A model generated the notes under the pieces. That model was given only the letters and a program-made list of their open reading frames with translations, was not told the origin of the DNA and did no database searches. This document shows positions 4,115-58,400 of a stretch of DNA of 64,000 nt, in pieces. Both the position numbers and the translations under genes were made by a program. Each line of letters starts with the position of its first letter. Positions within the stretch are counted from its first letter, which is position 1. The stretch comes from Phlegmacium glaucopus (lineage: Eukaryota > Basidiomycota > Agaricomycetes > Agaricales > Cortinariaceae): assembly GCA_015039465.1 (NCBI GenBank), contig MU130359.1:494191-558190 (forward strand). Direction: 5' to 3'.

Positions 4115-4701
4115 TGTTACATTCCGTCTTACGTTACTCCGGTCCAGCTCCGTCGGAGCTGTCTCCAGTAGTCCGTACTCTGAACAGTACCTTCCCTTAT
4201 ATCCCGAACTACTCTTCCTATGTTCAACTCCGAGACTTCTCCGTGTCATTCCGGTTTTTCCGTCTATACTCCAAACCCGTTATCACTTCTTCGCCACTAC
4301 CACTATTCTTTGTCATCACCCTTCCCATCATCAGTCAGTATACCCGCCATGGATTATTCACCCAAGAATGCAGGACCTTTCCGGGAGCAGAACGCAGCAC
4401 TTATATTTATCTTTTATATTTCGGTTGCTATTCCTTTATTTATTTAAGTACTCGAAACTTGTATGTTTTCCCTCAGTTCGAATATCAACTTAGTTTCCTC
4501 CTCTTGTTCTTCCTCTAAGTCACTGAGGTCTTCCAACTTGTTACTTTCTTCTTCCGTTCCGAAATCAGGACACCTTAGGAGCTGGGCGGCACAGCACACA
4601 CGCTGAGGCCAACGTCCTTTCCAGGTTACTGTTCCGGTTCCGTTCCGTCCGTTCTGGAGTAACTCCGACGTGACTATTCCTTTTTTGTTTTAAACTTAAC
4701 A
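4115..4701 (+). mobile_element. Solo LTR of the chromovirus family, with target duplication
   Basis: A 587-bp sequence begins TGTTACATTCC and ends CTTAACA. It is flanked by a perfect 5-bp direct repeat GTTCA at 4110-4114 and 4702-4706. It matches the reverse strand of the LTRs at 42183-42760, 50498-51044 and 52638-53224. With a target duplication and no internal region, it is a solo LTR left by LTR-LTR recombination. The short ORFs inside it are LTR sequence, not genes. Confidence 0.92.
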
Positions 4702-11657: not shown

Positions 11658-12234
11658 TATTCCCCCCCAGCTTAAAGCCTCACATTGATATTGCTCTCAT
11701 CTAGACTTGTATACTTCAAACCAACCACTTAAAATTCAACACACTACTCCTTATACCTAATTTCCAATCCCTAATCACAACATTAGGTGCTGCCACACCC
11801 AAATCTGGAAAGAAACTCTCAAGCATGAACCTAATTTATTCTCAAAGATCAAAAAAAGAAATAGACCACTGGTCCAGTCTTTTAACTGGACTTCCAAGCA
11901 CTAATGCTGGTAGCAACCTGCTGTACTGACACATATGGAATTAGGAAGGTGATGGATTTATTCAATTTGTTTCTGATGCTTTCATCAATACCTTCAACAT
12001 ACTTATACACTTAAAATACTTCTAGATATTCAGTGATGTTTTGATAACATCAAAGATGTGGCTATACTTGGATAGGCATGGAAGATAGTAATTTATACAG
12101 CTTTCACAATGTCATACTAACAACTACAGAGGTATATGTGTCTTACAGTCTTCATGATGCAAATCCCCCTTTGAGTCCTTTTCACAACATTACATTGTTT
12201 GAAAGGAACCATGTTCTGCCATAAGTTTATGAAG

Positions 12235-15200
12235 CTAACATTGATACTATATTTGAGAGAAAATATTGAGCAATGAAACAAGAATGTAGAATAAAATGTA
12301 AGGGCCATACATACCTCTAGAAGCAAAAGTTCTCCTGTTCCATATCCAAGGCATATTTTTGACAAGTGGTAACTGACAGAGATTGGCTTACAGTAAGGTG
12401 GTGGAATCCATATTTTATGGAGGTTCATAGTGTGGAATATAATACCTTGATATATAGCAAGGAATGATAATTGTAATGAGGGATAAATTTGGTCATCAGC
12501 ATCATGGTGGATAAAAACACCATTAGGAATTGATGATAAAATAGGCAATGGACAGTTATCAGATAAACATGGAACAAAGGTATATTCATTCAGCTCTGCC
12601 TCACACTCTCCTGTGGCTGTATTCCAGATCCTTGCAGTCTTATCATAAGATGCAGACACAATATGCATACCATCAGGAGAGAAGACAGCAGACAGAACAA
12701 CATCTGAATGTCCTTTCAGCTCTGCCTCACACTCTCCTGTGGCTGTATTCCAGATCCTTGCAGTATTATCATAAGCAGGAGAGAAGACAGCAGATTTGAC
12801 AAAATTTGTATGTCCTTTTAGCTCTGCATTGCACTCTCCTGTGGCTGTATTCCAGATCCTTGCAGTGCTATTATCAGATGCAGACACAATATGCATACCA
12901 TCAGGGGAGAAGACAGCAGAGTTAACACTTTGTGAATGTCTCAGAATTACTTCACTTGGGCTCCATGTCTTTCTCCTTCCCAAGCAAAGCTCCCATGGAC
13001 AATCCATCCTATTTCCATATATTTTCCAAATATCTGAATTTTCTGGCAGCCAAACTAATGCTGATGGACATCCTTCAAGACTGTTGTCTTTAATACATTC
13101 AAAATTTTCTTTTAGGAACCTTTCAACATCAATCACTGTCGTCTTCAATGACTTCTGGGCCTATTTTCTGTTGTAAGTGCAGTTCATCTGCAGCAATATG
13201 AATACTTACCTTTGCCCAACTTTCTAGCTTATGCAGTAAATGCATTGCCATTCTCAACTTTCCTAGAATACTCAAGCAATCCATCCATCGCAGAAGAAGT
13301 CTTTGAAAAAAATGCTTCAATTCATCAATTTCATTGTTGTTGTCTGCATATATGAAATGTGAAACCCAGCTAACACAAGCATATGCAAGAGATTCAGAAA
13401 TCTCTCCACATTTCCTCTCTGCCAAGTAAGATACCCTTTCTTTCTCTGACCATTCTTTCTCCATCAGGGACAGACACTGAAGTGCTAAATGCTTATGTGA
13501 AATATATGGGTCAAGATAGTGCTTTGGGGAAAGAATTTGATTGCTGATGAAATCATAGAAAGAAGCATGGAATATTGAGATTGGCATATCAGAGTCTTGA
13601 GATGGAATATACATCAAGAGAAGAAAGGGCAGCCACAGCATGTTCTATGGGCATTTTCATCACAGCACTGATGGCAGTCATAGAAAGAGGATTATAGACA
13701 TATACAACAGCTGTGAGAATCATATCTATATTCATCCTCTCATTTCCATCTGTAAAGGCATAGGCAGCATCCAGAATTCTTTCATAAAGAATATTTAGTG
13801 GATGGGTTACACCAGATCCTGCTGCCAATTTAGAATTGACCACATATGAAAGACACTGGGGCATGCTAGAGCTACCCTTCTGAGTAATATATTTGCAGAC
13901 AGTTGCTGCATAAATGAATAAAGTGCCAGACATGCTGACAAGGCTTTCAAGTTCAGCCTCAGGAGGCCAATTATGCATATTGTGCCTCACTTGGCCACCA
14001 ATCAAGCAAGCTTTGATGTAAAGCTCAATATCAGCCTTAACAATCTCCTTTTCAACCTCATGAAGGATGAAATTAGAATGATCCAAAGAATGATCAAAAG
14101 TCTCCTTGACCATTACTTCTGGACGACTAGTGATGAAGAACTTGACTGGAAGAGATTTACTATGCTTTAAGATCATAGAAAGCAACTCAGCCACAAGGGA
14201 CTGGTCAGAGCACTCATCCAGGGCATCAAGAACAATAACTGGGACTACTCCTCCCCCTCCAGTACTATCTCTATATGTAGTGAGTGGTCTGACCATGAAA
14301 TTCAGGAATTGTTTGCCAATTCTCCAAGATATGCAGTCAGAACTGGGATCAGCTCTTATTACATCCAAGATAAGATGAGACAGAGAAGGGAGATACTCAG
14401 CCAACTGAAGGGAGATAGTGGGGATGATGTAATGAACATCGCTGGTATCAACCCGGAGATGAGATGAGAAGAAGGTGCCACCAAGGGAATCCTGTTCATG
14501 AAGGATTTCGCTGAAAGAGTAAGCAATTGTTGTTTTGCCAGTTCCAGCCATCCCATTGAGCCAGTATACCTTTGTGGCCGTATCATCACTGGCCCACACT
14601 TGCAATGAATCAAGGATTGCCTCGCGAGTGTTCTCCGTACATGCGTTGCGTGGAGATGCTGCATCGTATTCTGCGAACTGAGAACGCGGCAAGAGCTTCT
14701 CACGTAGTGCATCCTATGGACTAGTATTCAGCACAGATCATCCAACTCCAAGGAGTATATTGCTCAATAATTCGAAGGTTCGGTTCATTTCCATCAGCAT
14801 TGAATGGTGCATGCATGTGAATCTGATACGATGATAGAACTGTCGATACACAGATTGGCTTTTGTACAGACGGAATGATGCTTACACTGTTGGCCATGTT
14901 AAACGTTGAGTTGTGCAGGTATACATCGTGAGCACCTTGGAAGGCGGACGCTGGACTATGGATGTTTGGAGCCATGTACTAAATGAGAAGTGATTAACAA
15001 CGACGGCCGTGAGCGCAACACGGACGCTGACCGTGGATGGAGTTTCTGGTCCTGGGCTAGCAGAACCAAGTTGCCTGGGCACAATAGGTATCGATACTGA
15101 AACTGGTACTGGTACAGAATTCGAGCGGGACACTGTGTTTACCTCTGCGGTCACAACGGATGTGGCAGGGTGATCGCCGCTGACCACAGGGACCATTGTG

Positions 15201-39324: not shown

Positions 39325-39412
39325 TCACTGCATCACCCCTTTGTCACTGCGTCGCCCCTTTGTCACTGCGTCGCCCCTTTGTCACTGCATCGCCCCTTTG
39401 TCACTGCGTCGC
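39325..39412. repeat. 19-bp minisatellite, left part
   Basis: The unit CGCCCCTTTGTCACTGCGT/A is repeated four to five times. The array resumes at 40822-40920 after the inserted 1.4-kb element. Confidence 0.85.
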
Positions 39413-40821
39413 TGTCGCGCACCAATACTGATTGGTAGCGTGAGAAGAAAGCTTAAAAGTCGCCATCATGAAAATAAGCGGACTTTGAATTTGCTTACCT
39501 ATTTTGGAAGCGGCCCTGAATCGTGTTCCTGGTCAACAAAACCATTCATTCAACGATAACATCCCCATTGCTCATCATACTCTCAATGTCTCACACTATG
39601 CTCTCCATTGTTTTCACTATCGACATGCTCCTAAGCATATACCATCCATTCGTTCCTTGGCTAGTGATCCAGCAAAGCGATCAATCTACTATTCGCGTCG
39701 GTCATCAGCTCACGTTTGATCGTATCCTTGGTCCATCATTTCAAGAACGGCCCCTTCATGGACGCATCAACTACATCTCCCATTATGTACAAGGCTTTGT
39801 CATTGTTGTTGTGGCTATGGACCCACAAGTCTTCCCCTCAGCCATCTATCTTGCCATCCCTCGCTCCTGGATCTCACTCAGTCCCCTATCCTCACTCATC
39901 TACCTCTTATCTTATCATTCACTGCCAAAACCATCATTCACGCGGTACCTGAAGCCTTCCCACCCTATTTATGACAATTTAGGAAGTCCAGGAGGATCAC
40001 GACTAAGCAGGAATTGCAGATGAATCAGCAGCAGAGGATTATTCTCGCAGTGTGTCAAGTGTTATCAAGGCTGCGCGACATGGGACCATGGGCAAGTAGT
40101 GTTTTCTCGGGAACAAGGCTGCGCCTTTCAAGTGTTGACTCAGGACCTTTCACATTTTTGACATGACCACACGCCTATGGAGTCGATATATTTTTGCTAT
40201 TGGACTATGTACACTGCCTTCTCTTCTTTTCTCTCGCACTTTGACACTTTACAGATTTTTTTATTGTTCCTTCTTCTTTTCCATTGTTCTTTTCTTCTCG
40301 CAGCTGTCCTCTCTTTATCTTTCTTCCTTTGACAGCGCGTACTTTTTTCTTTTTTATTGTTTTACATAGCCTCATCCTTAGGGTATAAATACTGCTCTTT
40401 TGTACCAGGATAGGTAGTTCAGTTAAAATTCATTCTTACCCCCCCACTTTCATTATCTCAGTGGAATTCCAGTGAATTCCTTCCTTAAGTTCGCTTTTTC
40501 AGTCCCTTACTGTCACTGTCCTCTACTGTCAATCACTATAGTCTTGCTGAAGACTCTTCCTCTATCATCCTCATCCACATCCTCTACTCCCTTCGCTTTT
40601 TCAGCCTTTTACTTGTCACTGTCCCCTACTGTCAACCGCTGTAGTCTCACCAAAGACTCTCTCATATTCATCCTCATCCACCTCTACTCTTGCTCCCTAC
40701 CTCTGTGTGATACAAGTCAAGGTTACACCTTCCCTAAACGAACAACAGGGAGTCTCTTGACCTAAGGTCTGGTCCACTGCTCTCTGGTTGGTGTTTATAT
40801 ACAACAACAACAACGATTTAT
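39413..40821 (+). mobile_element. 1.4-kb repeat element, copy 1 (possible solo LTR)
   Basis: Starts TGTCGCGCACCAATACTGATTGG and ends ...ACAACAACAACGATTTAT(A). It splits a minisatellite, with TCGC on both sides (GTCGC left, ATCGC right), which suggests a 4- to 5-bp target duplication. A near-identical copy (48423-49775) interrupts the chromovirus gag at another TCGC. A promoter-like TATAAATACTGCTC lies at about 40384, two-thirds in, as in a U3-R-U5 layout. The ends are not the usual TG...CA, so solo LTR is one possibility and an unknown element type another. It carries the ORF at 39586-40023. Confidence 0.75.
39586..40023 (+). CDS. Conserved 145-codon ORF of the 1.4-kb repeat, copy 1
   Basis: Open from ATG to TGA with the same length (438 bp, no indels) as its twin at 48596-49033, although the two elements differ by about 56 bp elsewhere. 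By eye I count about 16 third-position, 13 first-position and 7 second-position differences. The third-position changes are synonymous, and many replacements are conservative (V/I, L/V, H/Y, N/S). The protein contains HPFVPWLVIQQSDQS, YISHYV and VVAMDPQVF and has no family I recognise. The codon pattern is suggestive, not proof; chance openness of a slowly diverging repeat is the alternative. Confidence 0.4.
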   Translation: MSHTMLSIVFTIDMLLSIYHPFVPWLVIQQSDQSTIRVGHQLTFDRILGPSFQERPLHGRINYISHYVQGFVIVVVAMDPQVFPSAIYLAIPRSWISLSPLSSLIYLLSYHSLPKPSFTRYLKPSHPIYDNLGSPGGSRLSRNCR

Positions 40822-40920
40822 ATCGCCCCTTTGTCACTGCGTCTCCCCTTTGTCACTGCATCGCCACTTCGTTACTTCGTCGCCCTTTAGTCATTACATC
40901 GCTCCTTGTTTCGCTTGTCG
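40822..40920. repeat. 19-bp minisatellite, right part
   Basis: Units ATCGCCCCTTTGTCACTGC continue the array at 39325-39412 and decay to CGTCGCCCTTTAGTCATTACAT-like units. Confidence 0.75.
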
Positions 40921-42182: not shown

Positions 42183-42760
42183 TGTTAAGTTTAAAGCAAA
42201 AGGAAGAAGTCACGTCGGAGTTACTCCGGAACAGAACCGGAACAGTAACCCGGAAAGGATGTTGGCCTCAGCGTATGTGCTGTGCCGCCCAGCTCCTAAG
42301 GTGTCCTGATTTCAGAACGGAAGAAGTAAGTAACAAGTTGGAAGACCTCAGTGACTTAGAGGGAAAACAAGAGGAGGGAAACTAAGTTGATATTCGAACT
42401 GAGGGAAAACATACAAGTTCGAGTACTTTAAATATAAAAGGAATTGCAACCGAAATATAGAATATAAATATAAGTGCTGCGTTCTGCTCCCGGGAAAGGT
42501 CCTGCATTCTTGGGTGAATAATCCATGGCTGGTGTGCTGACTGATGATGGGAAAGATGATGACAAAGAATAGTGGTAGTGGCGAAGAAGTGATAACGGGT
42601 TTGGAGTATAGACGGAGGAACCGGAATGACACGGAGAAGTCTCGGAGTTGAACATAGGAAGAGTAGTTCGGGATATAAGGGAAGGCACTGTACGGAGTAC
42701 GGACTACCGGAAACAACTCCGACGGAGCTGGACCGGAGTAACGTATGACGGAATGTAACA
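42183..42760 (-). repeat. 3' LTR of the chromovirus
   Basis: 578 bp. On the minus strand it reads TGTTACATTCC to CTTAACA. A purine-rich ACAGGGAGGTAC immediately ahead of it (minus strand) is the likely polypurine tract. Confidence 0.92.
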
Positions 42761-42823
42761 GTACCTCCCTGTCAAGGCCGAGACCCTCGAGGCCACGTGA
42801 TGGTCCGTGCGAGGTTTCCGTGG

Positions 42824-42829
42824 TATAAA
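42824..42829 (+). promoter_or_regulatory. TATA box of the antisense chromovirus gene
   Basis: TATAAA (in GTGGTATAAAGAC) lies about 80 bp ahead of the ATG at 42905 and just inside the 3' LTR. The same TATA, its surroundings and a CACGTGATGG block upstream are kept in the truncated element copy at 55144-55225. Confidence 0.65.
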
Positions 42830-42904
42830 GACTGTCGGCGACTGGGGTTGATTCCTCACTTCGGTAACCTCACCAACTGCCCCATCCTCCAAAAATTTAA
42901 TAAC

Positions 42905-43954
42905 ATGAACACCAACAACAATGCCGGCCCCTCCCGCCCTCCTGCTTCCCAACGAGCTCGGCTCGAGGAAGCACGGGAGCGTCGACGGAGAGAGCGGGAG
43001 GAGGAGGAAAGGCGGGAAGAGGCGGAGATTGAGGAGGCGCGGAGGCTGGAGGAGGAGGAGGAGAGACGGAGGGTAGAGGCGGAGAGACAGAGGGTGGAGG
43101 CAGAGAAACGGAGGGAAGAGGCGGAAGAGAGAAAGAGGGAGGAGGTGAAACGGAGGCAGCAGGAGGAAGAGCAGCGGAAGAGAAAAGCGGAAGCAATGGT
43201 CGTTGATGACGACAACGATGAAGAAGAGGAGGAAGGTAACGGAATGGAGCCGGGGCCGAGTGCCCCAAAAAAGAGAAAAACAAATGATAAAGTAAGTGTT
43301 CAAAAAATAGGAACGGATCAAGACTAACGGAAAACATAGGAGGTCTATCAGACCAAAACGAAGAAGAACCCGGCGTGTAGCCGGTGCATGGAGGCACACG
43401 AAGTGTGCTACGAGAAGAGCAGTGGGCCAGGGTGCTGGCGGTGCTATCAGAGGAAGATAGCATGCAGCCTGGTTGGAGGGAAACGGAAGACGAAGGAGCG
43501 GACGGAGGAACGGAGCGGAAGGGTGGATAAGGGGAAGAAGAAGGAGGTAGCGCCAGAGGTGGACGGGACGGAGTTAATAATAGAGGGGCTGGAAATGATA
43601 GGAGGACTGTTGAGGAAAATGGTGGAGATGCAGGAGGGGATAAAGTACGCGATGGAAGTACAGATGAGGAGGGAGATAGAGAGGGAGAAGAGGGAGATTG
43701 AGAAGGATAGATGGAAAGAGGAGTGGAGGGAAGAGGAGAGAAAACGGAGAGACGCAACGAAAGCGGAGAAGGGGGTGGAGACGGAGATGCAAGAGGAGAC
43801 GGAGGAGGAAACGGATGACGGGGAAGACAAGGAGGTGGAGGAAGGGTTGGAAGCGGAGACAGAGAGAACGGACGGAGGAGCAGACGGAGGAGCGGAGATG
43901 GAAGGGATGGAAGGAGTAGAAGGAGTAGAAGGAGTAGAAAAAACAGCAGAATAA
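42905..43954 (+). CDS. Antisense gene of the chromovirus: coiled-coil protein with Zn2Cys6-like cluster
   Basis: The gene lies between the pol stop and the 3' LTR, on the strand opposite gag-pol. Exons 42905-43291 and 43340-43954 join across a 48-bp intron (GTAAGT ... CTAAC ... CATAG) into 333 codons. Exon 1: Asn/Ser/Pro start (MNTNNNAGPSRPP), a long Arg/Glu heptad-like coiled coil, an acidic run (DDDNDEEEEE) and a PKKRK nuclear-signal-like motif. Exon 2 opens with six cysteines spaced C-X2-C-X6-C-X8-C-X2-C-X6-C, the spacing of fungal binuclear zinc clusters. It lacks most of the usual basic residues between the second and third Cys. A Glu/Lys-rich, partly coiled tail ending in EGVEGVEGVE follows. 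An upstream in-frame ATG at 42797 falls before the TATA box and is unlikely to be used. Role unknown. Confidence 0.75.
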
Positions 43955-44187
43955 AAAGTAAAAAATAATTGTATATAATTTTTTTCTTGTTATTTTTTTT
44001 TTTGTTTTGTTTATAAAAAATAGTTTTCTTGAACTTTTGTTTTGTGAAACAGAAGAGTAAGATAATGGAAAGGATTAGAATGGAAATGATGACTTTGTTT
44101 TGTGAAACGGAAAAGTAAGATGACGGAAAGGAAATGGAAAAGACATGGAAAGGGCACGGAAAAAGCAAGGAAAGAGACGGAAAGGAA

Positions 44188-47100
44188 TCAAGAGAGCGGA
44201 AGAGGTCCAGGTTTAGCCGGATAACTCTGGTGGAAATCAGCAACAAGTTCGGATGCATGTCCTAGTTCATTAGCTGGTAACCAGGAAGTTTCTTCGTCGG
44301 TACCTTCATAGCCAGACCACTTGACTAGGTACAGAAGTTTGCATACACGTCGTCTGTTGTCCAATTTAGAGTCCAAAATCTCGGAGACCTCAAATTCCTG
44401 TTCTCCGTCAATGACGACCGGAGGAGGCGGAGGTTGAGTGCGTTCCGGAATAGTGTTCGGAACGGAGGGCTCTAGCATGGAAACATGGAAGACGGGATGG
44501 ACGGCACGCAAGTTGTCGGGAAGACGAAGGGTCCAGGACAAAGGACCTGCCTGAGCAATAATCTCATACGGACCAAGATACTTCTCAGAGAGTTTCTTTG
44601 AAGGTCTGGTCGTACGGAAGAATTGTGCTCTGACAAAGGCCCGATCCCCAACCTTGAAGTCCGGAGGAGGAATCCGACGCTTGTCCGCGGAACGTTGGTA
44701 TTGTTCCTGGGAAGTAAGGATAGCTTTTTGGAGTTCCTCGTGGAGTTCGTTAAGGTCCGTAACGTACTTGTGAGCACGGGAGGAGACAAGGTCGTACTCC
44801 AGATGGATAGTGATAGCCGGATCGTAGCCTTTGTTGGCAAAGAACGGAGATACACCGGTAGTGGCACTCGGAGTATTGTTGTAGGAGAATTCCGCTAACG
44901 GGAGAAGTGAACTCCAGTTGTCTTGCTGATAATTGCAGTAGATGCGGATGTATTGTTCCAAGGTCTGGTTGACGCGTTCCATTTGTCCGTCACCTTCCGG
45001 GTGGTATCCGGAGGTGAAGTGCAACTTCATGTCGAGGGCTTTTCTGAGGGATCTGAAGAAGTGAGATACAAACTCGGAACCGCGATCGGAAGTTACATGG
45101 GACAGAACACCGTGCTTGGAAAACACGTGGATGACAAATAGTTCAGCAAGTTGAGCGGAAGTGATGGTGTCGTATGTGGGGATGAAAATGGATTGTTTTG
45201 TGAAACGGTCTACTACGACCAAGACCGCAGTGAAACCTTCGGAGTCCGGAAGGTGTTCAATGAAATCCATGGAGATGGAGTCCCAAGGACGGGACGGAAC
45301 AGGGAGTTGTCGGAGTAAGCCGTATGGTTTATGACGTTTGGCTTTGGACCGAGAACAGGTGGTGCAAGTCCTACAATAGTCAGTGACAAAAACACGAACA
45401 CTGGGCCAAGTATATTCTCGACGGATAACCGCAAGAGTTCTATTGACACCAAAATGTCCGGAGACGGGATGGTCATGATAATAATGAAGGACACGGAGAC
45501 GAAGATCTCCGGAATCTGGAACATAGATCCGTTGATCAATCCGGACAAGTCCGGAAGAGTCCTTAGACCATCTAGCATACTTCGGATTGTCTAGATCCGA
45601 TAAGTAGGACTGTGCAAGGGGATCCGTGGAAAGAGCGGAAAGGATCCCCTTGTTGAGCTCTTCGACATCCATGGTAAAGATACCACGGAGTACAGTAGGA
45701 AGTAATGAAGTAGCTCGGAGCGAAGCGGAAAGTTGTTCGGAAGAAAAGATAGGTTTAAAATTGTGTGGATTGACTTCACCGTAATCTTTCCCTCCCTCCT
45801 TTAGATAGAGGTCAGGACGACGAGTCAGCGCGTCCGGTTTTGTTCCGAGACGGCCTGGGCGAAATCTAATAACCATGTTGAATGCAGAAAGGTACTCAGA
45901 CCACCGGGCTTGACGCCGGGATAAGATCTTTGTGGTCGAGAAATACTCTAGATTCTTATGGTCAGTAACCACATCAATCGGGAAACTAGCACCTTCAAGG
46001 TAGTGATGCCAAGCTTTAAAAGCTTCAAAAATGGCGAGTAACTCCTTGTCGTGAACATTGTAATTCAATTCCGCACCGGAGAAGGTACGAGAACGATACG
46101 CAACGGGATGGATTTCTCCATCGGAATCACAGATGGAAAGGATAGCTGCTAAAGCGTAGTCGGATGCGTCAGTTTCCACAATGATAGGACAGTCTGGCTT
46201 CCAGTGTGTTAACACCGGAGCGGAAATAAAAGCCTCCTTGAGAGTCTTAAAAGCAAGGCGACAACTGTCATCAAAAACCCACGGAATATTTTTCCGGGTG
46301 AGACGGGTCAAAGGAACGACAATATCGGAATAATTGTGGATGAAACATCTGTAAAAATTAGCAAAACCGAGGAAGGATTGGACATCTTTGACTTTCCGAG
46401 GTTCCGGCCAGTCTTCAATGACTTGGACTTTCGCCGGATCCATTGAAAGGCCATCAGGACCAATCATGTGACCCAGGTACTCGATGGAATCGGAGTGGAA
46501 AACACATTTCTTACCATTAGTGAAGGGATTATTATCTCGGAGCCGTCAGAGGACTTTGGAGACATGTTTGATGTGATCTTTTTCGTTGATGGAGAAAATG
46601 AGGATGTCGTCCAGATAGATGATTACGAACACATCTAAAAGGTCAGCAAAAATGGTGTTAAGGAAGCATTGAAAACCGCCAGGGGCGTTGGTAAGTCCGA
46701 ACGGCATGACCAGCCACTCGAAGGAGCCATAGCGGGTACGGAAAGCAGTCTTCCACTCGTCTCCGGCAGCAATCCGGACGAGATGGTAGGCATGCTTTAA
46801 ATCGATTTTAGTGAATATTCCGGATTTGCGCGGAGCATCAAGTAAGTCGGAAACAAGGGGTAAGGGATACTTGTCTTTCCGAGTGATGGCGTTGAGTTTT
46901 CGGAAGTCGACGCAAAGCCGGAGTGACCCGTCCTTCTTCTTGATGAACAGGACAGGTGCTCCGAAGGGAGACTTAGAGGGACGGATGAAACCCATGTTTA
47001 GGTGCTCGTCGATGAACTCTCGGAGCGTTCCTAACTCGGATTCGGAAAGGGGATAAATCGGACCCAAGGGGGGCTTAGCAGACTCATCAATTTCGATTTT

Positions 47101-47945
47101 TAGGTCATACTCTCGATGCTCCGCTAGAGTGCTAGCCTTGCCTTTGGAAAAGACGTCCGAAAATTTGTGGTATATTTCCGGAACACCGTCCAGATCGGAA
47201 TCGGATGGTGTAGTGGAGGCTGAGGCGGAACGGCCAGCAGCCTCGACTGGATGGTGAACAGAAATGGAGTAGCATTGGGCTCCTTCGGAACGGATGGACC
47301 TCATGAAAGCTGCAGCAGACACTAAGGAAATTTTAGGAGCGGTCAATGGTTTGGGAACAAAAGGGATATCAGGAGGTGGTTCCGGGACAGAAGGTATTTC
47401 AACCTTTGTCTTCGCGGAAACCGTATCAGACATGGTAATGTCAGATACCGGAACGGGTGCCTTGGCGGAAACGGAAGCAGGAACTGGAAGGATAACTATA
47501 CGGTCTCGGAAAGTTACACTGCTATCGACCCAATCAATCAACGGATTATGCAGGGTGAGCCAGTCAAGCCCGAGTACAGCAGGAAAATCAGAATCCAGCT
47601 TGGTTAATAAAAACCGGATTTTGTGGACTGTACCACAAGAAAAACGAACGGAAACAATGGTAGCATGTGTGATCATGCCCGGAGAAGAACCATCAATAAG
47701 ACGGAGAATCATAGGAGTAATCGGAAAAATAGGAAAACCTTTGGACTTCGCGAAATGCTCATCCATGAAACAGTGAGTGGAACCACTGTCAATGAAAGCG
47801 GAAAAATTGATATGCGGAAATTGAAGAGAGAGAAGAGAAACAAAAACTGCTCAGGTTTCTGGAGAGATTATTGCATTGAGAACTGCAACAAGCTCAGCAC
47901 AGGGCTTCTCGCAATTCACCGTCTGTGCTGAGTCCAGTGAATTGC
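44188..47945 (-). pseudogene. pol: Chromovirus pol: protease, reverse transcriptase, RNase H, integrase, chromodomain
   Basis: Retroelement polyprotein, read right to left. Aspartic protease with FIDSGSTHC (about 47790). Reverse transcriptase with the YLDDI catalytic site (about 46620). RNase H with ETDASDYA (about 46180). Integrase with an HHCC zinc site (HPVSGHFG ... CRTCTTC), catalytic D/D/E positions (MDFIEHLP, TSDRGSEF, GDGQMERVNQ) and a GPY-type segment. The C-terminal chromodomain (EFEVSEILDSK ... YLVKWSGYEGTDEETSW) probably directs insertion to marked chromatin. The pol frame is -1 relative to gag, with an A6 run just before the gag stop. Two TGA stops break it, near 47860 (before the protease) and near 46545 (after RT motif HIKHVSKVL). 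The second sits where the family normally has Arg, consistent with CGA to TGA. Confidence 0.92.
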
Positions 47946-48422
47946 TTAGTCTTTTTTCTTCTCCGAACCGGAGTCCTTTGGCTTAGCCGGAGCGGACTCG
48001 GAGACGGAATCAGAAACGGTAGAGGCTCGGCCTTTAGCGGGGCTTGCCTTGGCAAGGTTACAGTCAGGAACGCGATGTCCCGGCTTGCCACAGAAAAGAC
48101 AAAGTTTATTATCCATCCGGCGTTGCCTTTCTTGCTGGGTAAGTCTACCCCGCGAGTCCAGCTTGCCTTCTAGATTAGGTTTAGGAGGAGTGGATGATGG
48201 AACCTTACTGGAGTTTGCGGGCTTAACGGATTTTTGATCCGAAGGCCGAGACTGTTTACCGGAACTGGAAGAGGGATTGGAAGAAGAGGGTACGGAGGAG
48301 GATGAAGAAGGGGTAGGACCCTTCGGAGGGTTTTGGCGTTGCTGCGGAGCGGATTCCCGAGAACGTTCTTGCATACGTTCCCAGTAGCGAGCATCGGCAT
48401 TTTGAGCTTTTTGACGCATCGC

Positions 48423-49775
48423 TGTCGTGCACCAATACTGATTGGTAGCGTGAGAAGAAAGCTTAAAAGTCGCCATCATGAAAATAAGCGGACTTTGAAT
48501 TTGCTTACCTATTTTGGAAGCGGCCCTGAATCGCGTTCCTGGTCAACAAAACCATTCGTTCAACGATAACATCCTCATCGCTCATCATATCCTCAATGTC
48601 TTCCACTATGTTGTCTATCATTTACACTATCGACATGCTCCTTAACATCTACCATCCGTTTGTCCCTTGGCTAGTGATACAACAAAGCGATCAATCTACT
48701 ATTCGCATCGGTCATCGGCTCGCGTTTGATCGCATCTATGGCCCATCATTTCAAGAACGGCCCGTTTATGGACGCATCAGCTACATCTCCCATTATGTCA
48801 AAGGCTTTGTCATCGTTGTTGTGGCTATGGACCCACAAGTCTTCTCCTCAGCTATCTATCTTGCCATACCTCGCTCCTGGATCGCACTCAGTCCCCTATC
48901 CTCACTCATCTACCTCTTACCTTATCATTCACTGCCAAAACCATCATTCACGCAGTACCTGAAGCCTTCCCACCCTCTTTATGACAATTTAGGAAGTCCA
49001 GGAGGATCACGACTAAGCAGGAATTGCAGATGAATCAGCACCAGAGGATTATTCTCGCAGTGTGTCAAGTGTTACCAAGGCTGCGCGACATGGGACCATG
49101 GGCAAGTAGTGTTTTCTCAGGAACAAGGCTGCGCCTTTCAAGTGTTGACTCAGGACCTTTCATATTTTGACATGACCACACGCCTATGGAGTTGATATAT
49201 TTTTGCTATTGGACTATGTACACTGCCTTTTTTTCTTTTCTCTCGCACTTTGACACTTTACAGATTATTTTACTGTTCCTTTTCTTTTCCATTGTTCTTT
49301 TCTTCTCGCAGCTGTCCTCTCTTCATCATTCTTCCTTTGACAGCGCGCACTTTGTTTCTTTTTATTGTTTTACATAGCCTCATCCTTAGGTATAAATACT
49401 GCTCTTTTGTACCAGGATAAGTAGTTCAGTTCAATTCATTCTTACCCCCCACTTTCATCATCTCAGTGGAATTCCAGTGAATTCCTCCCTTAAGTTCGCT
49501 TTTTCAGTCCTTTACTGTCAATCTATCCCCTATCCCTCAACCGCTATAGTCTTACTGAAGACTCTCTCTTGCTCATCCTCATCCTCGTCTTATACCTCAT
49601 TCATCTTCCAAGACCTTCATCCTCCTCCTTCTCTTCTCTATTCTTTCCTCTAACCTCTGTGTGTTAAAAGTCAAGGTTATACCTTCCCTAAACGAACAAC
49701 AGGGAGTCTCTTGACCTAAGGTCTGGTCCACTGCTCTCTGGTTGGTGTTTATATACAACAACAACAACGATTTAT
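48423..49775 (+). mobile_element. 1.35-kb repeat element, copy 2, nested in gag
   Basis: It is flanked by ATCGC at 48418-48422 and 49776-49780, the target duplication that shows it landed in gag after the chromovirus inserted. It starts TGTCGTGCACCAATACTG and ends CAACGATTTAT. TATAAATACTGCTC lies at about 49391. It is close to 39413-40821 along the whole length except for a divergent segment near 49500-49660. Confidence 0.85.
48596..49033 (+). CDS. Conserved 145-codon ORF of the 1.35-kb repeat, copy 2
   Basis: Open over the same 438 bp as the ORF at 39586-40023 and in the same place in the element. It carries HPFVPWLVIQQSDQS, GPSFQERPVYGRI, YISHYVKGFVIVVVAMD and LPKPSFTQYLKP. Weakly hydrophobic stretches occur; no signal peptide or catalytic motif is recognised. 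It may be an element-encoded protein or an accidental open frame. Confidence 0.4.
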   Translation: MSSTMLSIIYTIDMLLNIYHPFVPWLVIQQSDQSTIRIGHRLAFDRIYGPSFQERPVYGRISYISHYVKGFVIVVVAMDPQVFSSAIYLAIPRSWIALSPLSSLIYLLPYHSLPKPSFTQYLKPSHPLYDNLGSPGGSRLSRNCR

Positions 49776-50497
49776 ATCGCGGTTAAAGACCGGGGCTTGC
49801 CATCACCTTTGCTGATTTCATCCTTGATTCGGGAAGGTAAACCTTCGTAAAACCTATACCTAAGAGCAGGCTCGCCCCAAGTACAGCGGACTGCCAAGGA
49901 GTTAAACCGGACTAAGTAATCGGAGATACGTTGGCCGTCCTTCATTCGGAGATTGGTGAGTTCGTGTTCTATGTCGGCGGACTCGTTGTAAGGACCAAAG
50001 TTGGACTGAAGTTCGCTGACAAAGAGATCCCAATCTTCAAGCCAAGACGGAGGCTCGTCGGTGAGACCGGAAATTCCAGGTTCGAACCATTCCTGAGCAA
50101 CGTCCCGGAGATAGGACAGAGCAAATGTTACTCGCTTGGAGTCATCTCGGAATGTGTCGGAAGAGCTCCGGAAATAGAGCTTGCACTGGAAAAGAAAAGC
50201 TTTTAGTTTCTTAGGATCCTTACCCGTGAAGGGTTCGGGCTCTCTAAGTCTGCCAGCCGAATCGGACTTGGCTGAAGATTTCCCGAGGGAATTTAAAGCG
50301 GAAACGAGTTGATTGATATGAATAGTTGGAGACTCAACTTCGTCCGTAGTACTCCGAGGTTCATCAATATGACTAGCCTCTTCGACTACATCGGGAATGG
50401 GAGTGTTTTCGTGGGACATAATTTCTTGTATCGGTAATTGTGTTTTGGAAGTTTTAGAACGAGTTTGCATAGGAGTGGGTGAGGAGTTCGAATATAC

Positions 50498-51044
50498 TGT
50501 TAAGTTTAAAGCAAAAGAGAAGTCACGTCGGAGTTACTCCGGAACGGATGGAACGGAACCAGAACAGTAACCCGGAAAGGACGTTGGCCTCAGCGTATGT
50601 GCTGTGCCGCCCAGCTCCTAAGGTGTCCTGATTTCAGAACAGAAGAAGTAAGTAACAAGTCGGAAGACCTCAGTGACTTAGAGGGAAAACAAGAGGAGGA
50701 AACTAAGTTGATATTCGAACTGAGGGAAAACATACAAGTTCGAGTACTTTAAATATAAAAGGAATTGCAACCGAAATATAGAATATAAATATAAGTGCTG
50801 CGTTCTGCTCCCGGAAAGGTCCTGCATTCTTGGGTGAATAATCCATGGCTGGTGTGCTGACTGATGATGGGAAAGATGATGGGTTTGGAGTATAGTCGGA
50901 GGAACCGGAATGACACGGAGAAGTCTCGGAGTTGAACATAGGAAGAGTAGTTCGGGATATAAGGGAAGGCACTGTACGGAGTACGGACTACCGGAAACAA
51001 CTCCGACGGAGCTGGACCGGAGTAATGTATGACGGAATGTAACA
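50498..51044 (-). repeat. 5' LTR of the chromovirus
   Basis: 547 bp. It differs from the 3' LTR by a ~31-bp internal deletion near 50880, between GATGATG repeats, and by scattered substitutions. It ends next to AATAC. Confidence 0.92.
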
Positions 51045-52637: not shown

Positions 52638-53224
52638 TGTTAAGTTTAAAGCAAAGAGGAGAAGTCACATCGGAGTTACTCCGGAACGGACAGAATGGAA
52701 CCGGAACAGTAACCCGGAAAGGACGTTGGCCTCAGCGTATGTGCTGTGCTGCCCAGCTCCTAAGGTGTCCTGATTTCGGAACGGAAGAAGTAAGTAACAA
52801 GTCGGAAGACCTCAGTGACTTAGAGGGAAAACAAGAGGAGGGAAACTAAGTTGATATTCGAACTGAGGGAAAACATACAAGTTCGAGTACTTTAAATATA
52901 AAAGGAATTGCAACCAAAATATAGAATATAAATATAAGTGCTGCGTTCTGCTCCCGGGAAAGGTCCTGCATTCTTGGGTGAATAATCCATGGCTGGTGTG
53001 CTGACTGATGATGGGAAAGATGATGACAAAGAATAGTGGTAGTGGCGAAGAAGTGATAACGGGTTTGGAGTATAGACGGAAGAACCGGAATGACACGGAG
53101 AAGTCTCGGAGTTGAACATAGAAAGAGTAGTTCGGGATATAAGGGAAAGCACTGTACGGAGTACGGACTACCGGAAACAGCTCCGACGGAGCTAGACCGG
53201 AGTAACGTATGACGGAATGTAACA
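52638..53224 (-). mobile_element. Chromovirus LTR without target duplication
   Basis: A 587-bp LTR, TGTTAAG...GTAACA. The flanks differ (CTCCGG left, GGATGC right), so it is not a simple solo insertion. It cuts the protease gene on one side and abuts the copia-gag remnant and start of the segmental duplication on the other. Confidence 0.9.
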
Positions 53225-53558: not shown

Positions 53559-54553
53559 ACCACTGGTCCAGTCCTTTAACTGGACTTCCAAGCACTAGTG
53601 CTGGTAGCAACCTGCTGTACTAACACATATGGAATTAGGAAGGGGGATGGATTTATTCAATTTGTTTCTGATGCTTTCATCAATACCTTAAACATACTTA
53701 TACACTCAAAAGGAAATTTATAGATATTCAGTGATGTTTTGGTAACATCAAATATATGGCTATACTTGGATAGGCATAGAAGATACTAATTTATACAACT
53801 TTCACAATGTCATACTAACAACTACATAGATATATTTGTCTTACAGTCTTCATGATGCAATCCACCACTTTTGAGTCTTTGCACAATATTACATTGTTGT
53901 GAAAGGAACTATATTCTGCCATAAGTTTATGAAGCTAAGATTGAAACTGTGTTTGAGAGAAAATATTGAGCAATGAAGCAACAATCTAGAATAAAATGTA
54001 AGGATACATACCTCTAGAAGTAAAAGTTCTCCTGATCCATATCCAAGGCATATTTTGGACAAGTGGTAGCTGATTGATGTTGGCTCACAGTAAAGTGGTG
54101 GAATCCACATTTTATGGAGGTTCATAGTATGGAATATTGTATCTTGATATATATCAAGGAATGGTGGCTGTAATGAGGGATAAATGGAGCCATAAGCACC
54201 ATGGTGGATAAAAACACCGTCAGGAAGTAATGATAAAACAGGTAATTGACAGTTATCAGATAAATGTGGAACAAAGGTATGCTCATTCAGCTCTGCCTCC
54301 CACTCTCCTGTGGCTGTATTCCAGATACATGCAGTGTTATCATAAGATGCAGATACAATATGCATACCATCAGGAGAGAAGACAGCAGAGTTGACACTTT
54401 GTAAATGTCCTTTCAGCTCTGCCTCACACTCTCCTGTGGCTGTATTCCAGATCCTTGCAGTACTATCATAAGATGCAGATACAATATGCATACCATCAGG
54501 AGAGAAGACAGCAGAGTTGACACCTTGTAAATGTCCTTTCAGCTCTGCCTCAC

Positions 54554-55143
54554 TGTTAAGTTCGAGAACTCTATTCCGGAGTTTCGGACGGAGTAACGGA
54601 CGGAGTAACGGACGGAGTACCGGAACGGAGTCACGGAAAGGATAGGACTTAGCCTCAGCTTATGTGCTGTGCTACCCAGAACCTTCGTGTCCTAATTTCG
54701 GAGTAAGACGGAGCGGAGCGGAACCGGAAGTTGCAAAGAACTTAGAGGAAGACCAAGAGTGGGAAACTAAGTCGATATTCGAACTGAGGAAAACATACAA
54801 GTTTCGAGTACTTAAATATAAAAGGAATAGCATCCGAAATATAAAATATAAATTAAATGCTGCGTTCTGCTCCCGGAAGGTCCTGCATTCTTGGGGTGAA
54901 TAATCCATAGCTGGTGTGCTGACTGATGGTGGGAAAGTGATGACAAAGAAATAGTGGTTGTGACGAAGATGTGGAAATGAGTTTGGAGTAACGTCGGAAG
55001 AGCCGGAATGATACGGAGAAGTCTCGGAGTTGGACATAGAAGGAGTAAATCCGGAGGCAAGGGAAAGTACTGGAACGGAGTACGGACTACCGGAGACAAC
55101 TCCGACGGAGTCGGACCGGAGTAACGTATGACGGAATGTAACA
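54554..55143 (-). mobile_element. Diverged chromovirus LTR inside the WD40 exon
   Basis: 590 bp, TGTTAAGTTCGAG...GTAACA, more diverged than the other LTRs. It is followed directly by GTACCTCCCTGTCAAGGCC, the internal sequence next to the 3' LTR of the full element, so this is the 3' end of a second, truncated element. Confidence 0.88.
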
Positions 55144-55484
55144 GTACCTCCCTGTCAAGGCCGAGACCCTCGAGGCCACGTGATGGTCCGTGCGAGGTTG
55201 GCGTGGTATAAAGACCGTCGGAGACTGGTGGAGATTCTTCACTTCGGATAACTTCCCTAACCACCATCATCCACAACAAAACCACATATGAATGCCAACA
55301 ACAAAGCCGGCTCCTCCCTCACACCCTCCTGCGCAACGAGCAAGGCTCGAAGAAGCACGAGAGCCTCGGCAGAAAGAGCCGCAGGAGGAAGACAAGCGGG
55401 AAGAAGCGGAGATTGCGGAAGCCCATCAGGCTAGAGGAAGAGCAGGAGAGACCAAACCCGGGGGCGGAGGCGGAATGACCTTTT
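55144..55484 (+). pseudogene. 5' part of the chromovirus antisense gene, second copy
   Basis: It matches 42761-43070: CCACGTGATGGTCCGTGCGAGG, GTGGTATAAAGAC and the leader are conserved, then an ATG (about 55288) and the coiled-coil start (QRARLEEARE). A frame change near the start and a truncation after AEIAEAHQARG break the gene. The right end joins WD40 sequence at GGAATGACCTTTTAGCTC. Confidence 0.8.
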
Positions 55485-58400
55485 AGCTCTGCCTCACACT
55501 CTCCTGTGGCTGTATTCCAGATCCTTGCAGTGTTATCATCAGATGCAGACACAATATGCATACCATCAGGAGAGAAGACAGCAGAGTTGACCCAGCCTGA
55601 ATGTCCTTTTAGCTCTGCCTCATACTCTCCTGTGGCTGTATTCCAGATCCTTGCAGTGTTATCATGAGATGCAGACACAATATGCATACCATCAGGAGAG
55701 AAGACAGCAGACCAGACTGTATCTGAATGACCTTTAAGCTCTGCCTCGCACTCTCCTGTGGCTGTATTCCAGATCCTTGCAGTCTTATCACCAGATGCAG
55801 ACACAATATGCATACCATCAGGAGAGAAGACAGCAGAGTTGACACTTTGTAAATGTCCTTTCAGCTCTGCCTCACACTCTCCTGTGGCTGTATTCCAGAT
55901 CCGTGCAGTGTTATCACAAGATGCAGACACAATATGCATACCATCAGGAGAGAAGACAGCAGATTTGACACAATTTGTATGTCCTTTTAGCTCTGCCTCA
56001 CACTCTCCTGTGGCTGTATTCCAGATCCTTGCAGTACTATCATAAGATGCAGATACAATATGCATACCATCAGGAGAGAAGACAGCAAACTTGACCCCAT
56101 CTGAATGCCCTTTTAGCTCTGCCTCACACTCTCCTGTGGCTGTATTCCAGATCCTTGCAGTGTTATCTGAGGATGCAGACACAATATGCATACCATCAGG
56201 AGAGAAGGCAGCAGAGAAGACAATTCCTGAATGTCCTTTCAGCTCTGCCTCACACTCTCCTGTGGCTGTATTCCAGATCCTTGCAGTGTTATCTGAGGAT
56301 GCAGACACAATATGCATACCATCAGGAGAGAAGACAGCAGAGAAGACAGATCCTGAATGTCCTTTCAGCTCTGCCTCACACTCTCCTGTGGCTGTATTCC
56401 AGATCCTCGCAGTGTTATCAGAAGATGCAGACACAATATGCATACCATCAGGAGAGAAGACAGCAGATTGGACAAAATTTGTATGTCCTTTTAGCTCTGC
56501 CTCACACTCTCCTGTGGCTGTATTCCAGATCCTTGCAGTGTTATTTGAAGATGCAGACACAATATGCATACTATCAGGGGAGAAGACAGCAGAGTTAACA
56601 CTTTGTGAATGTCTCAGAACTACTTCACTTGGGCTCCATGTCTTTCTCCTTCCCAAGCAAAGCTTCCATGGACAATCCATTCTATTTCCATATATTTTCC
56701 AAATATCTGATTTTTCTGGCAGCCAAACTAATGCTGAAGGACATCCTTCAAGACTGTTGTTTTTAATAAATTCAAAATTTTCTTTTAGAAACCTTTCAGC
56801 ATCAATCACTGTCATCTTCAATGACTTCTGTGCCTATTTTCTGTTGTAAGTATAGTTCATCTGCAGCAATATGAATAACTTACCTTTGCCCAACTTTCCA
56901 GCTCATGCAGTGAATGCATTGCCATTCCCAACTTTCCTAAAATACTCAAACAATCCATCCATCGCAAAAGATGTCTTTGGAAAAAATGCTTCAATTGATT
57001 AATTTGATCGTTGTTGTCTGCATATGTGAAATGTGAAACCCAACTAACACAAGCATATGCAAGAGATTCATAAATCTCTCCACATTTCCTCTCTGCCAAG
57101 TAAGATATCCTTTCTTTCTCTGACCATTCTTTCTCCATCAGGGACAGGCACTGAAGTGCTAAATGCTTATGTGAAATACATGGGTCAAGGTAGTGCTTTG
57201 AGGAAAGACTTTGATTGCTGATGAAATCATAGAAGGAAGCATGGAATATTGAGATTGGCATATCAGAGTCTTGAGATGGAATATGCATCAAGGAATGAAG
57301 AGAAGAAAGGGCAGCCACAGTGTGTTCTATGGGCATTTCCATCAAAGCACTGATGGCAGTCATAGAAAGAGGATTATAGACATATACAACAGCTATGAGA
57401 ATCATATCTATATTCATCCTCTCCTTTTGATTTGTAAAGGCATAGGCAGCATCCAGAATTCTTTCATAAAGAATATCTAGTGGATGGGTTACACCAGATG
57501 TTGCTTCCAATTTAGAATTGACCACATCTGAAAGACGTTGGGGCATGCTAGAGCTACCCTTCTGAGTAATGTATTTGCAGACAGTTGCTGCATAAATAAA
57601 CAAGGTGCCAGACATGCTGACAAGGCTTTCAAGTTCAGCCTGAGGAGGCCAATTATGCCTATTATGCACTTGGCCACCAATCAAGCAAGCTTTGATGTAA
57701 AGCTCAATATCAGCCTTAACAATCTCCTTTTCAACCTTATGAAGGATGAAGTTGGAATGATCCCAATAACAATCAAAAGTCTCCTTGACCACTACTTCTG
57801 GGCGACTAGTGATGAAGAACTTGACTGGAAGAGATTTACTATGCTTTAAGATCATAGAAAGCAACTCAGCCACAAGGGACTGGTCAGAGCACTCATCCAG
57901 GGCATCAAGAACAATAACTGGGAGTGCTCCTCCTCTAGTACTATCCTTATATGCAGTAAGTGGTCTGACCATGAAATTCAGGAATTGTTTGCTAATCCTC
58001 CAAGATGTGCAGTCAGAACTAGGATCAGTTTTGATCACATTTAAGATAAGGTGGGAGAGAGAAGGGAGATACTTGGCCAACTGAAGGGAGATGGTGGGGA
58101 TGATGCAGTGAACATCACTGGTATCAACCCGGAGATGAGAAGAGAAGAAGGTGCCTCCAAGGGAGTCCTGTTCACGAAGGATTTCACTGAACGAGTAAGC
58201 AATTGTCGTTTTACCGGTTCCAGCCATCCCGTTGAGCCAGTATACCTTTGTAGCCGTATCATCACCGGCCCACATTCGCAGTGAATCAAGGATTGCCTTG
58301 CGAGTATTCTCCGTACATCCATTACGTGGAGATGCTGCGTCATATTCCGCGAACTGAGCACGTGGTAGGAGGTTGTCACGTAGTGCATCCTATGAATTAG

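Follow-up and report, generated by a model that had tools for sequence, protein, structure and literature searches.

The window analyzed here, a 64,000-nucleotide stretch of Phlegmacium glaucopus DNA (assembly GCA_015039465.1, contig MU130359.1, positions 494,191 to 558,190 of the forward strand), carries a Ty3 chromovirus insertion with an additional, intron-bearing gene on the strand opposite gag-pol, between pol and the 3' long terminal repeat (LTR). Judged by the substitution pattern across its copies, this antisense gene is protein-coding and under purifying selection while the element is active, and comparison of the copies indicates that its coding region forms a hyperdiverse cassette whose flanks are similar, and that one of its allele classes occurs on several pol backgrounds. 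The encoded protein has a Zn2Cys6-like cysteine cluster, and the gene is probably a chromovirus accessory gene with its own TATA promoter and one intron, whose product would act as a Gal4-type nuclear dimer on the transcription or chromatin of its own element family.

Gene model, protein and selection

Located on the plus strand, in the interval bounded by the 3' LTR (42183-42760) and the pol stop (44188), the gene runs from an ATG at 42905 to a stop codon at 43952-43954, with 333 codons over two exons. Exon 1 (42905-43291, residues 1-129) encodes a charged N-terminus that looks coiled-coil-like by eye, an acidic run and the motif PKKRK; exon 2 (43340-43954, residues 130-333) encodes the Zn2Cys6-like cluster (142-171), a basic linker, a helix of ~80 residues and an acidic tail. 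Between them lies a 48-bp GT-AG intron (43292-43339, GTAAGT...CTAAC...TAG, containing GACTAAC) that measures 39-55 bp in other copies. The TATA box (TATAAA, 42824-42829, plus strand) stands 81 bp upstream of the ATG and 64 bp inside the 3' LTR boundary, beside a likely polypurine tract (42761-42775, purine-rich on the minus strand, named by eye, at least 90% conserved over 45 copies). It is present in 45/45 aligned copies, an E-box-like CACGTG at 42794-42799 (plus strand) is present in 42/45, and from the LTR end to the TATA box most positions agree in at least 90% of the 45 copies, with two positions at only ~30%. An earlier note on this DNA, made from the letters alone, had described the same TATA box, ATG ~80 bp on, in-frame exons, 48-bp intron and 333 codons, and its coordinates for these are exact; its placement of the gene opposite gag-pol between pol and the 3' LTR agrees with the open reading frame (ORF) coordinates and the Ty3 domains. 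The feature it had drawn at 42761..43957 holds the gene, except that 42761 is merely the LTR end and the stop codon ends at 43954.

A search that demanded GT and AG recovers the intron at an identical position in 41 of the 45 loci fetched; the GTAAG donor, which was not demanded, is present in 40 of these 41, and the intron of one further locus (L051) was seen by alignment. Its length is not a multiple of three in 24 of the 41 loci, stops are encountered if the window's intron is read through, and retention breaks the frame or adds a stop in 20/20 intact copies. Three of the depositors' proteins (P0001, P0002 and P0004) use the same exon junction.

A search for copies in the assembly that the window comes from (60.5 Mb in 259 contigs) puts the antisense gene at ~100 copies: ~40 by DNA search (the best 40 of 134 candidates scored) and 109 matches, down to ~42% identity, by protein search with exon 2. 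After removal of 10 second fragments of listed loci, 99 gene loci remain, of which 67 have a pol end of the same family within 6 kb downstream on the opposite strand, one has a pol end on the same strand (a short, stop-bearing fragment) and 31 have none, so that placement is antisense in 67 of the 68 loci with a nearby pol end. The linkage holds from the other side as well: among 145 pol-end matches (the best 150 of 314 candidates scored, less 5 second fragments; a few are still pieces of one element), the antisense gene accompanies 69/74 of the same family versus 1/71 of other Ty3 families. The homologous antisense ORFs that the earlier note had proposed looking for beside chromovirus 3' LTRs occupy the corresponding position in most copies of the family. 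A spliced ORF of at least 300 aa is kept in 20 of the 45 fetched loci. By eye, the decay of copies L009-L053 seems to consist largely of CGA-to-TGA stops and arginine-to-tryptophan changes, as CpG deamination predicts.

Purifying selection is seen in the ratio of nonsynonymous to synonymous divergence (dN/dS): for the 17 intact type-A sequences it is 0.160 in frame, over 136 pairs, with a codon bootstrap range of 0.126-0.202. Region by region, dN/dS is lowest in the acidic/PKKRK stretch (0.07) and the cysteine region (0.08), intermediate in the helix region and the first 100 residues (0.15-0.16) and highest in the tail (0.38). The earlier note had named dN/dS across copies as a check, a value near 1 counting against the gene; the values here lie far below 1. 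In a set of 21 intact sequences, made up of the window and the 20 loci whose spliced ORF reaches 300 aa, dN/dS is 0.19 in frame; the other plus frames give 1.07 and 1.27, two of the minus frames 1.27 and 1.58, and the wobble-sharing minus frame 0.35. A chance ORF is rejected by the difference between 0.16-0.19 in frame and 1.07-1.58 in four other frames. When copies are taken regardless of intactness, comparison with the window yields 0.07-0.32 for each exon.

The six cysteines, at residues 142, 145, 152, 161, 164 and 171, are spaced C-X2-C-X6-C-X8-C-X2-C-X6-C; they are conserved across copies and lost in the decayed copy L049. The Zn2Cys6 pattern is CX2CX6CX5-12CX2CX6-8C, which the antisense protein fits with its conserved cysteines. 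An AlphaFold model has the Zn2Cys6-linker-helix layout, and all 12 PDB matches listed in a fold comparison are Zn2Cys6 proteins, at low Z. The Pfam gathering score for PF00172 is missed (9.3 bits vs 21), with a best E of 0.38 among 11 family members and 3 of the 11 matching at E 1, and the protein is therefore called Zn2Cys6-like. The cysteine spacing, its conservation and the predicted fold support the Zn2Cys6-like cluster named in the earlier note, and the nuclear-signal-like PKKRK it had pointed to is also present, immediately upstream of the cysteine cluster and next to the acidic run, as is its coiled coil, judged by eye. A PDB sequence search with the family profile gave 0 matches, Pfam scans listed neither TRP28 (PF04195) nor a bZIP domain, protein searches of limited sensitivity (7992 candidates scored in the last) found no homologue in any other named organism, and a pattern scan of viral contigs found no relative.

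Cassette exchange and pol-deleted carriers

The antisense gene is far more divergent than the element that carries it. Synonymous divergence (dS) from the window is 0.07-0.26 for pol versus ~0.22-1.4 for the antisense gene of the same elements. L012 and L025 are excluded from these ranges; their pol matches are poor or remote and inflate the mean of the 32 pol comparisons. In the 11 elements with all segments filled, windowed divergence steps at the gene's two edges, from 5-10% in the LTR to 10-20% in the gene region and down to 2-9% in pol. Of two carriers of the allele termed B, L057 shows the contrast most clearly: it differs from the window by 5% in the LTR (only 157 bp alignable), 11% in the untranslated leader, 30% and 27% in the exons, 4% in the 3' noncoding stretch and 2.6% in pol, and L058 by 9% in the LTR (over 527 bp, concentrated in one stretch), 29% and 25% in the exons and 4% in pol.

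Gene and pol also tell different histories. In a comparison of 30 sequences, 3 of them with allele B, the gene tree groups L053, L057 and L058 (100/100), whereas the pol tree (453 columns) scatters them and their union is rejected (approximately unbiased test, p 0.003). A further locus, L050, is a mosaic, its exon 1 being nearer the window's type (21% different) and its exon 2 nearer the other type by protein. The divergence steps, the tree conflict and this mosaic together indicate that old coding-region alleles have been exchanged between backbones by recombination, probably by template switching. Mere faster evolution of the gene on a shared history was considered and set aside, since the intercept of the distance comparison and the tree conflict favor exchange; gene and pol distances still correlate (r 0.47), and a higher gene rate may contribute besides exchange. 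A strict linkage of gene type to LTR type was likewise rejected, the LTR distance from the window being 5% (L057) and 9% (L058) for allele B versus 3-12% for type A.

Several carriers have lost pol. L050 with its neighboring stretch L054 (C138), and likewise L051 (C134), are non-autonomous derivatives that have a pol deletion with identical junctions and retain the antisense gene; the L050 element is bounded by LTR sequence at its far side, and its gene is intact (349 codons), that of L051 being broken. Three loci of the same allele class, L055, L056 and L049, have no pol end within 6 kb, and their genes are respectively open for 328 codons, intact, and interrupted by two early stops. Among L050, L055, L056 and L049 dN/dS is 0.12-0.28 over 276-280 codons, and this allele class includes at least 11 gene loci without a nearby pol end. 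Elsewhere among the loci lacking a pol end, L009 and L025 retain just the final 32-34 codons of pol, and in L018, L029 and L046 no pol appears in the stretch examined. Pol-deleted elements are mobile only in trans, yet the antisense gene is kept.

CGGA saturation and the proposed function

Among tetramers of the element, CGGA, read on the strand of the antisense gene (on the gag-pol strand, TCCG), is the most over-represented: it occurs 137 times where dinucleotide shuffles predict 40.5, and LTR, gene, pol and gag all take part. On one strand of the element its density is ~22 per kb, compared with ~2 per kb in a 46-kb background drawn from the window without the element, the kilobases that hold further copies of the family, and 39-42 kb. 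CpGs stand in a CGGA context in 154/378 cases (41%) in the element versus 102/1610 (6%) in the same 46 kb, and CpGs in other contexts are about equally frequent per kb in the two. The density drops in a nested insertion and rises again in other family copies. All four ORF pieces lie above synonymous-codon shuffles (z 4.8, 3.6, 3.0 and 3.5), in all three reading frames, and the highest of 1000 such shuffles equals the observed count for gag (13) and exceeds it for the antisense gene (28 vs 27). The coding sequence of L057 holds 35 CGGA, 10 of them common to the window's 29, so that density is kept at mostly different sites. The excess is shared by the same-family loci L001, L002, L003 and L007 (reverse transcriptase 91-96%).

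Zn2Cys6 proteins classically bind CGG triplets, and the simplest link would be that the antisense protein reads CGGA. Weighing against this are the other Ty3 families, represented by eight loci: L004, L060 and L061, with no detected antisense gene, have the excess on both strands (ratios 2.3-2.7), L006 and L063 have it on one strand (TCCG ratio 2.0), and L005, L008 and L062 show none. L060-L063 are partly masked, so counts and absence of the gene hold there for the readable parts. The connection between motif and protein is therefore unproven and an exclusive one is disfavored; L004, L060 and L061 led to its rejection, and with them the motif is not confined to gene-bearing elements, as a dense oriented motif would be in a system like VANC of the VANDAL transposons (discussed below). 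The earlier suggestion that the protein acts on the element's own DNA accordingly draws circumstantial support from the saturation and is weakened by the sharing of the motif, and the suggestion of targeting jointly with the chromodomain found no support.

The chances are about even that the saturation is unrelated to the antisense protein and reflects a strand-specific mutational bias of reverse transcription, or a UCCG signal in RNA read by Gag in packaging. Such an origin fits the strand bias in the window's family, the involvement of every part of the element and the excess in families without a detected gene; the both-strand excess in L004, L060 and L061 fits a DNA-level signal, and the maintenance of density at mostly different sites in divergent alleles is not predicted by drift alone, though mutational bias could produce it. 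It is doubtful, if conceivable, that CGGA, which is spread over LTR, gag, pol, the antisense gene with its intron, and noncoding parts, is a self-recognition code beyond coding and codon needs, read by the antisense protein to find and protect or control all family copies, with the gene as a specificity cassette of old, shuffled alleles. Pol-less copies that keep the gene would then be served as well, and CGGA-rich families without it would be co-beneficiaries or relics.

There is reason to think that the accessory gene works as follows. It would be transcribed opposite to the genomic RNA from the TATA box just inside the 3' LTR, and the transcript would be spliced; an intron that the packaged RNA carries in antisense orientation stays in that RNA and can persist. 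The protein would be made as a nuclear dimer with coiled-coil-like helices, would bind DNA of its own family, probably at CGG-containing sites, and by binding may set the element's transcription or chromatin state. Whether this opposes silencing, as VANC does for VANDAL, or amounts to self-repression, as by HBZ in human T-lymphotropic virus type 1 (HTLV-1), is not separated by the data, and the former appears slightly more likely.

A self-limiting regulator of the HBZ or repressor kind, which represses the sense promoter or interferes with the gag-pol of the same or of related elements and whose cassette alleles are specificity or immunity types, is a less likely reading of the gene that nonetheless deserves serious weight. 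The antisense proteins of HTLV-1 to HTLV-4 are described as spliced, mostly nuclear and repressive in the source consulted (PMC10186651), and the alleles of the Phlegmacium gene are old, by the synonymous distances given above, and swapped between backbones, as if being different pays. However, a repressor does not obviously favor the retention of the gene by pol-less elements, and the LTRs are not sorted into the same classes as the gene. It is very improbable that the antisense RNA itself is the functional product, as double-stranded RNA, silencing trigger or decoy, with an incidental ORF: noncoding antisense transcripts are known in other elements, to go by the available account (PMC7264820), but selection here acts at the protein level (dN/dS 0.16), the cysteines are conserved, 24 of the 41 introns have a length that is not a multiple of three, and intron retention spoils the ORF in all 20 intact copies.

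Zn2Cys6 factors form a fungal host protein family, and one element might recently have acquired a host gene and be carrying it along as a passenger. That is hard to credit when the gene is found in most family copies, down to ~42% identity, under selection and at the same place in 67/68 loci with a pol end nearby, and when the protein searches, of limited sensitivity, returned no homologue in other named organisms; recent capture is disfavored, and an ancient capture may lie behind the gene. The idea that the real gene is the overlapping pol-strand ORF (453 aa, 42897-44258), with the plus-strand frame its shadow, can be set aside almost entirely, for although that ORF is long and 6/20 intact copies have at least 90% of the gene free of minus-strand stops (344/345 codons in L020), the longest such stretch falls below 90% in the other 14/20, the wobble-sharing minus frame has the weaker constraint (0.35 vs 0.19) with the other minus frames above 1, and TATA box, splice signals and cysteine cluster are all on the plus strand.

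For the favored accessory-gene reading, the type of domain predicts a biochemistry, namely zinc-dependent binding of CGG-containing DNA. Should the protein bind the element that encodes it, fungi would have a retrotransposon equivalent of VANC or HBZ and a model of how elements distinguish their own DNA from that of the host; the CGGA-saturated element offers numerous intact copies and naturally swapped alleles. The intron, whose orientation is antisense to the genomic RNA, also illustrates cleanly how an intron can survive retrotransposition.

Setting in the window and known systems

The chromovirus insertion spans 42183-51044, with its sense strand on the minus strand and a 5-bp target-site repeat, AATAC, at both ends. 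Its 3' LTR (42183-42760) is ~96-98% identical in aligned pieces to the 5' LTR (50498-51044, inner end approximate). ORF and domain reading places gag at 49772-50470, an upstream part of pol with reverse transcriptase at 46546-47766 and a 759-aa ORF with RNase H, integrase and chromodomain at 44188-46467, all on the minus strand. In this copy gag-pol is broken by nested LTR-like sequence at ~48.4-49.8 kb and by a stop codon in pol, and the antisense gene is intact despite this. The nested sequence (48416-49780), immediately downstream of the gag capsid ORF, and a stretch at 39406-40826 are direct copies, with pieces 92-96% alike, of another LTR-like repeat of ~1.4 kb.

Additional LTR copies of the chromovirus family lie at 52917-53224, 54836-55474 and 4115-4422, the last inverted. 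The one at 54836-55474 (plus strand) is a second, partial copy with an LTR end and the 5' part of an antisense gene, truncated, at 55140-55474; it is nearest the L050/L051 type (86-92% to L049, L050, L051 and L054). Gene copies with NACHT-like and WD40-repeat sequence (NLR-type, by eye) and similar internal repeats, at 12117-14692 and 53889-58275, flank the region of the element. Outside the window, at L059, beside the pol end of another Ty3 family, a different coding-looking stretch antisense to pol (~1195-1829, minus strand) has a C-X2-C...K-Y-K-C motif and a coiled-coil-like segment, and possibly belongs to another transposon with GGATCCCCTGCTAG repeats.

LTR retrotransposons with antisense accessory genes have been described before, and the function of these genes is still unknown according to the accounts consulted (PMC7264820; PMC11963269). 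The plant Ty3 elements Retand (with TRP28), Grande (gene23), RIRE2 and PvRetro13 carry such antisense ORFs of the aORF-3R type, which in those accounts resemble the Phlegmacium gene in lying antisense between pol and the 3' LTR and in being kept in most copies; some are predicted to be DNA-binding or nuclear, and the Grande gene is transcribed from a promoter upstream of it (PMC11963269; PMC7264820). Retand is assigned to a non-chromovirus lineage (PMC11963269). The Phlegmacium element, by contrast, is a fungal chromovirus in which TRP28 was not found, and its gene differs from the plant ORFs in the Zn2Cys6-like cluster, the single conserved intron and the cassette exchange. Grande and RIRE2, like Retand, are non-chromovirus elements.

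Closest in kind among fungi is brtn of the Boty element, whose original description is reportedly that of Zhao in 2011. It is an extra antisense gene between pol and the 3' LTR of a Ty3 element of Botrytis cinerea (PMC7264820; PMC8365987) that also carries a chromodomain (PMC4227169). The passages available on brtn mention neither a zinc cluster nor an intron.

Two systems are similar in their manner of working and not by descent. The HTLV-1 to HTLV-4 proteins HBZ and APH-2/3/4 come from spliced antisense regulator genes near the 3' LTR and, in the review consulted, repress or inhibit viral expression (PMC10186651); HBZ is a bZIP protein with promoters inside the 3' LTR, whereas in the Phlegmacium element the TATA box stands a short way inward of the LTR, and the protein has a Zn2Cys6-like domain. 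VANC of the Arabidopsis VANDAL elements is an anti-silencing protein that, as its description has it, recognizes a short, dense, co-oriented motif whose density gives specificity (PMC5735166), much as an element-encoded protein and a short motif dense in one orientation occur together here. VANDAL is, however, a DNA transposon, VANC a different protein with motifs mainly in noncoding tandem repeats, whereas CGGA fills coding and noncoding sequence, and binding has been shown for VANC and is predicted for the Phlegmacium protein.

The protein itself is most like the fungal factors Gal4, Hap1, Ppr1, Leu3 and Pho7, which share its CX2CX6C-linker-CX2CX6C spacing, linker and long helix, such factors being its only listed fold matches. 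It differs from them in scoring below the Pfam cut-off, in having the recognition-helix-like half as its second half, and in being a short, retrotransposon-encoded protein with no regulatory domain seen. Among open-access papers, judged in part by title or the start of the abstract, no description of an antisense Zn2Cys6 gene in an LTR retrotransposon was found. The earlier note knew of no fungal antisense gene with this make-up; brtn, in the sources at hand, already provides a fungal antisense gene, and what is new, as far as those papers go, is the Zn2Cys6-like protein with its conserved intron, selection in a basidiomycete family, evolution by cassette exchange, pol-less carriers and CGGA saturation.
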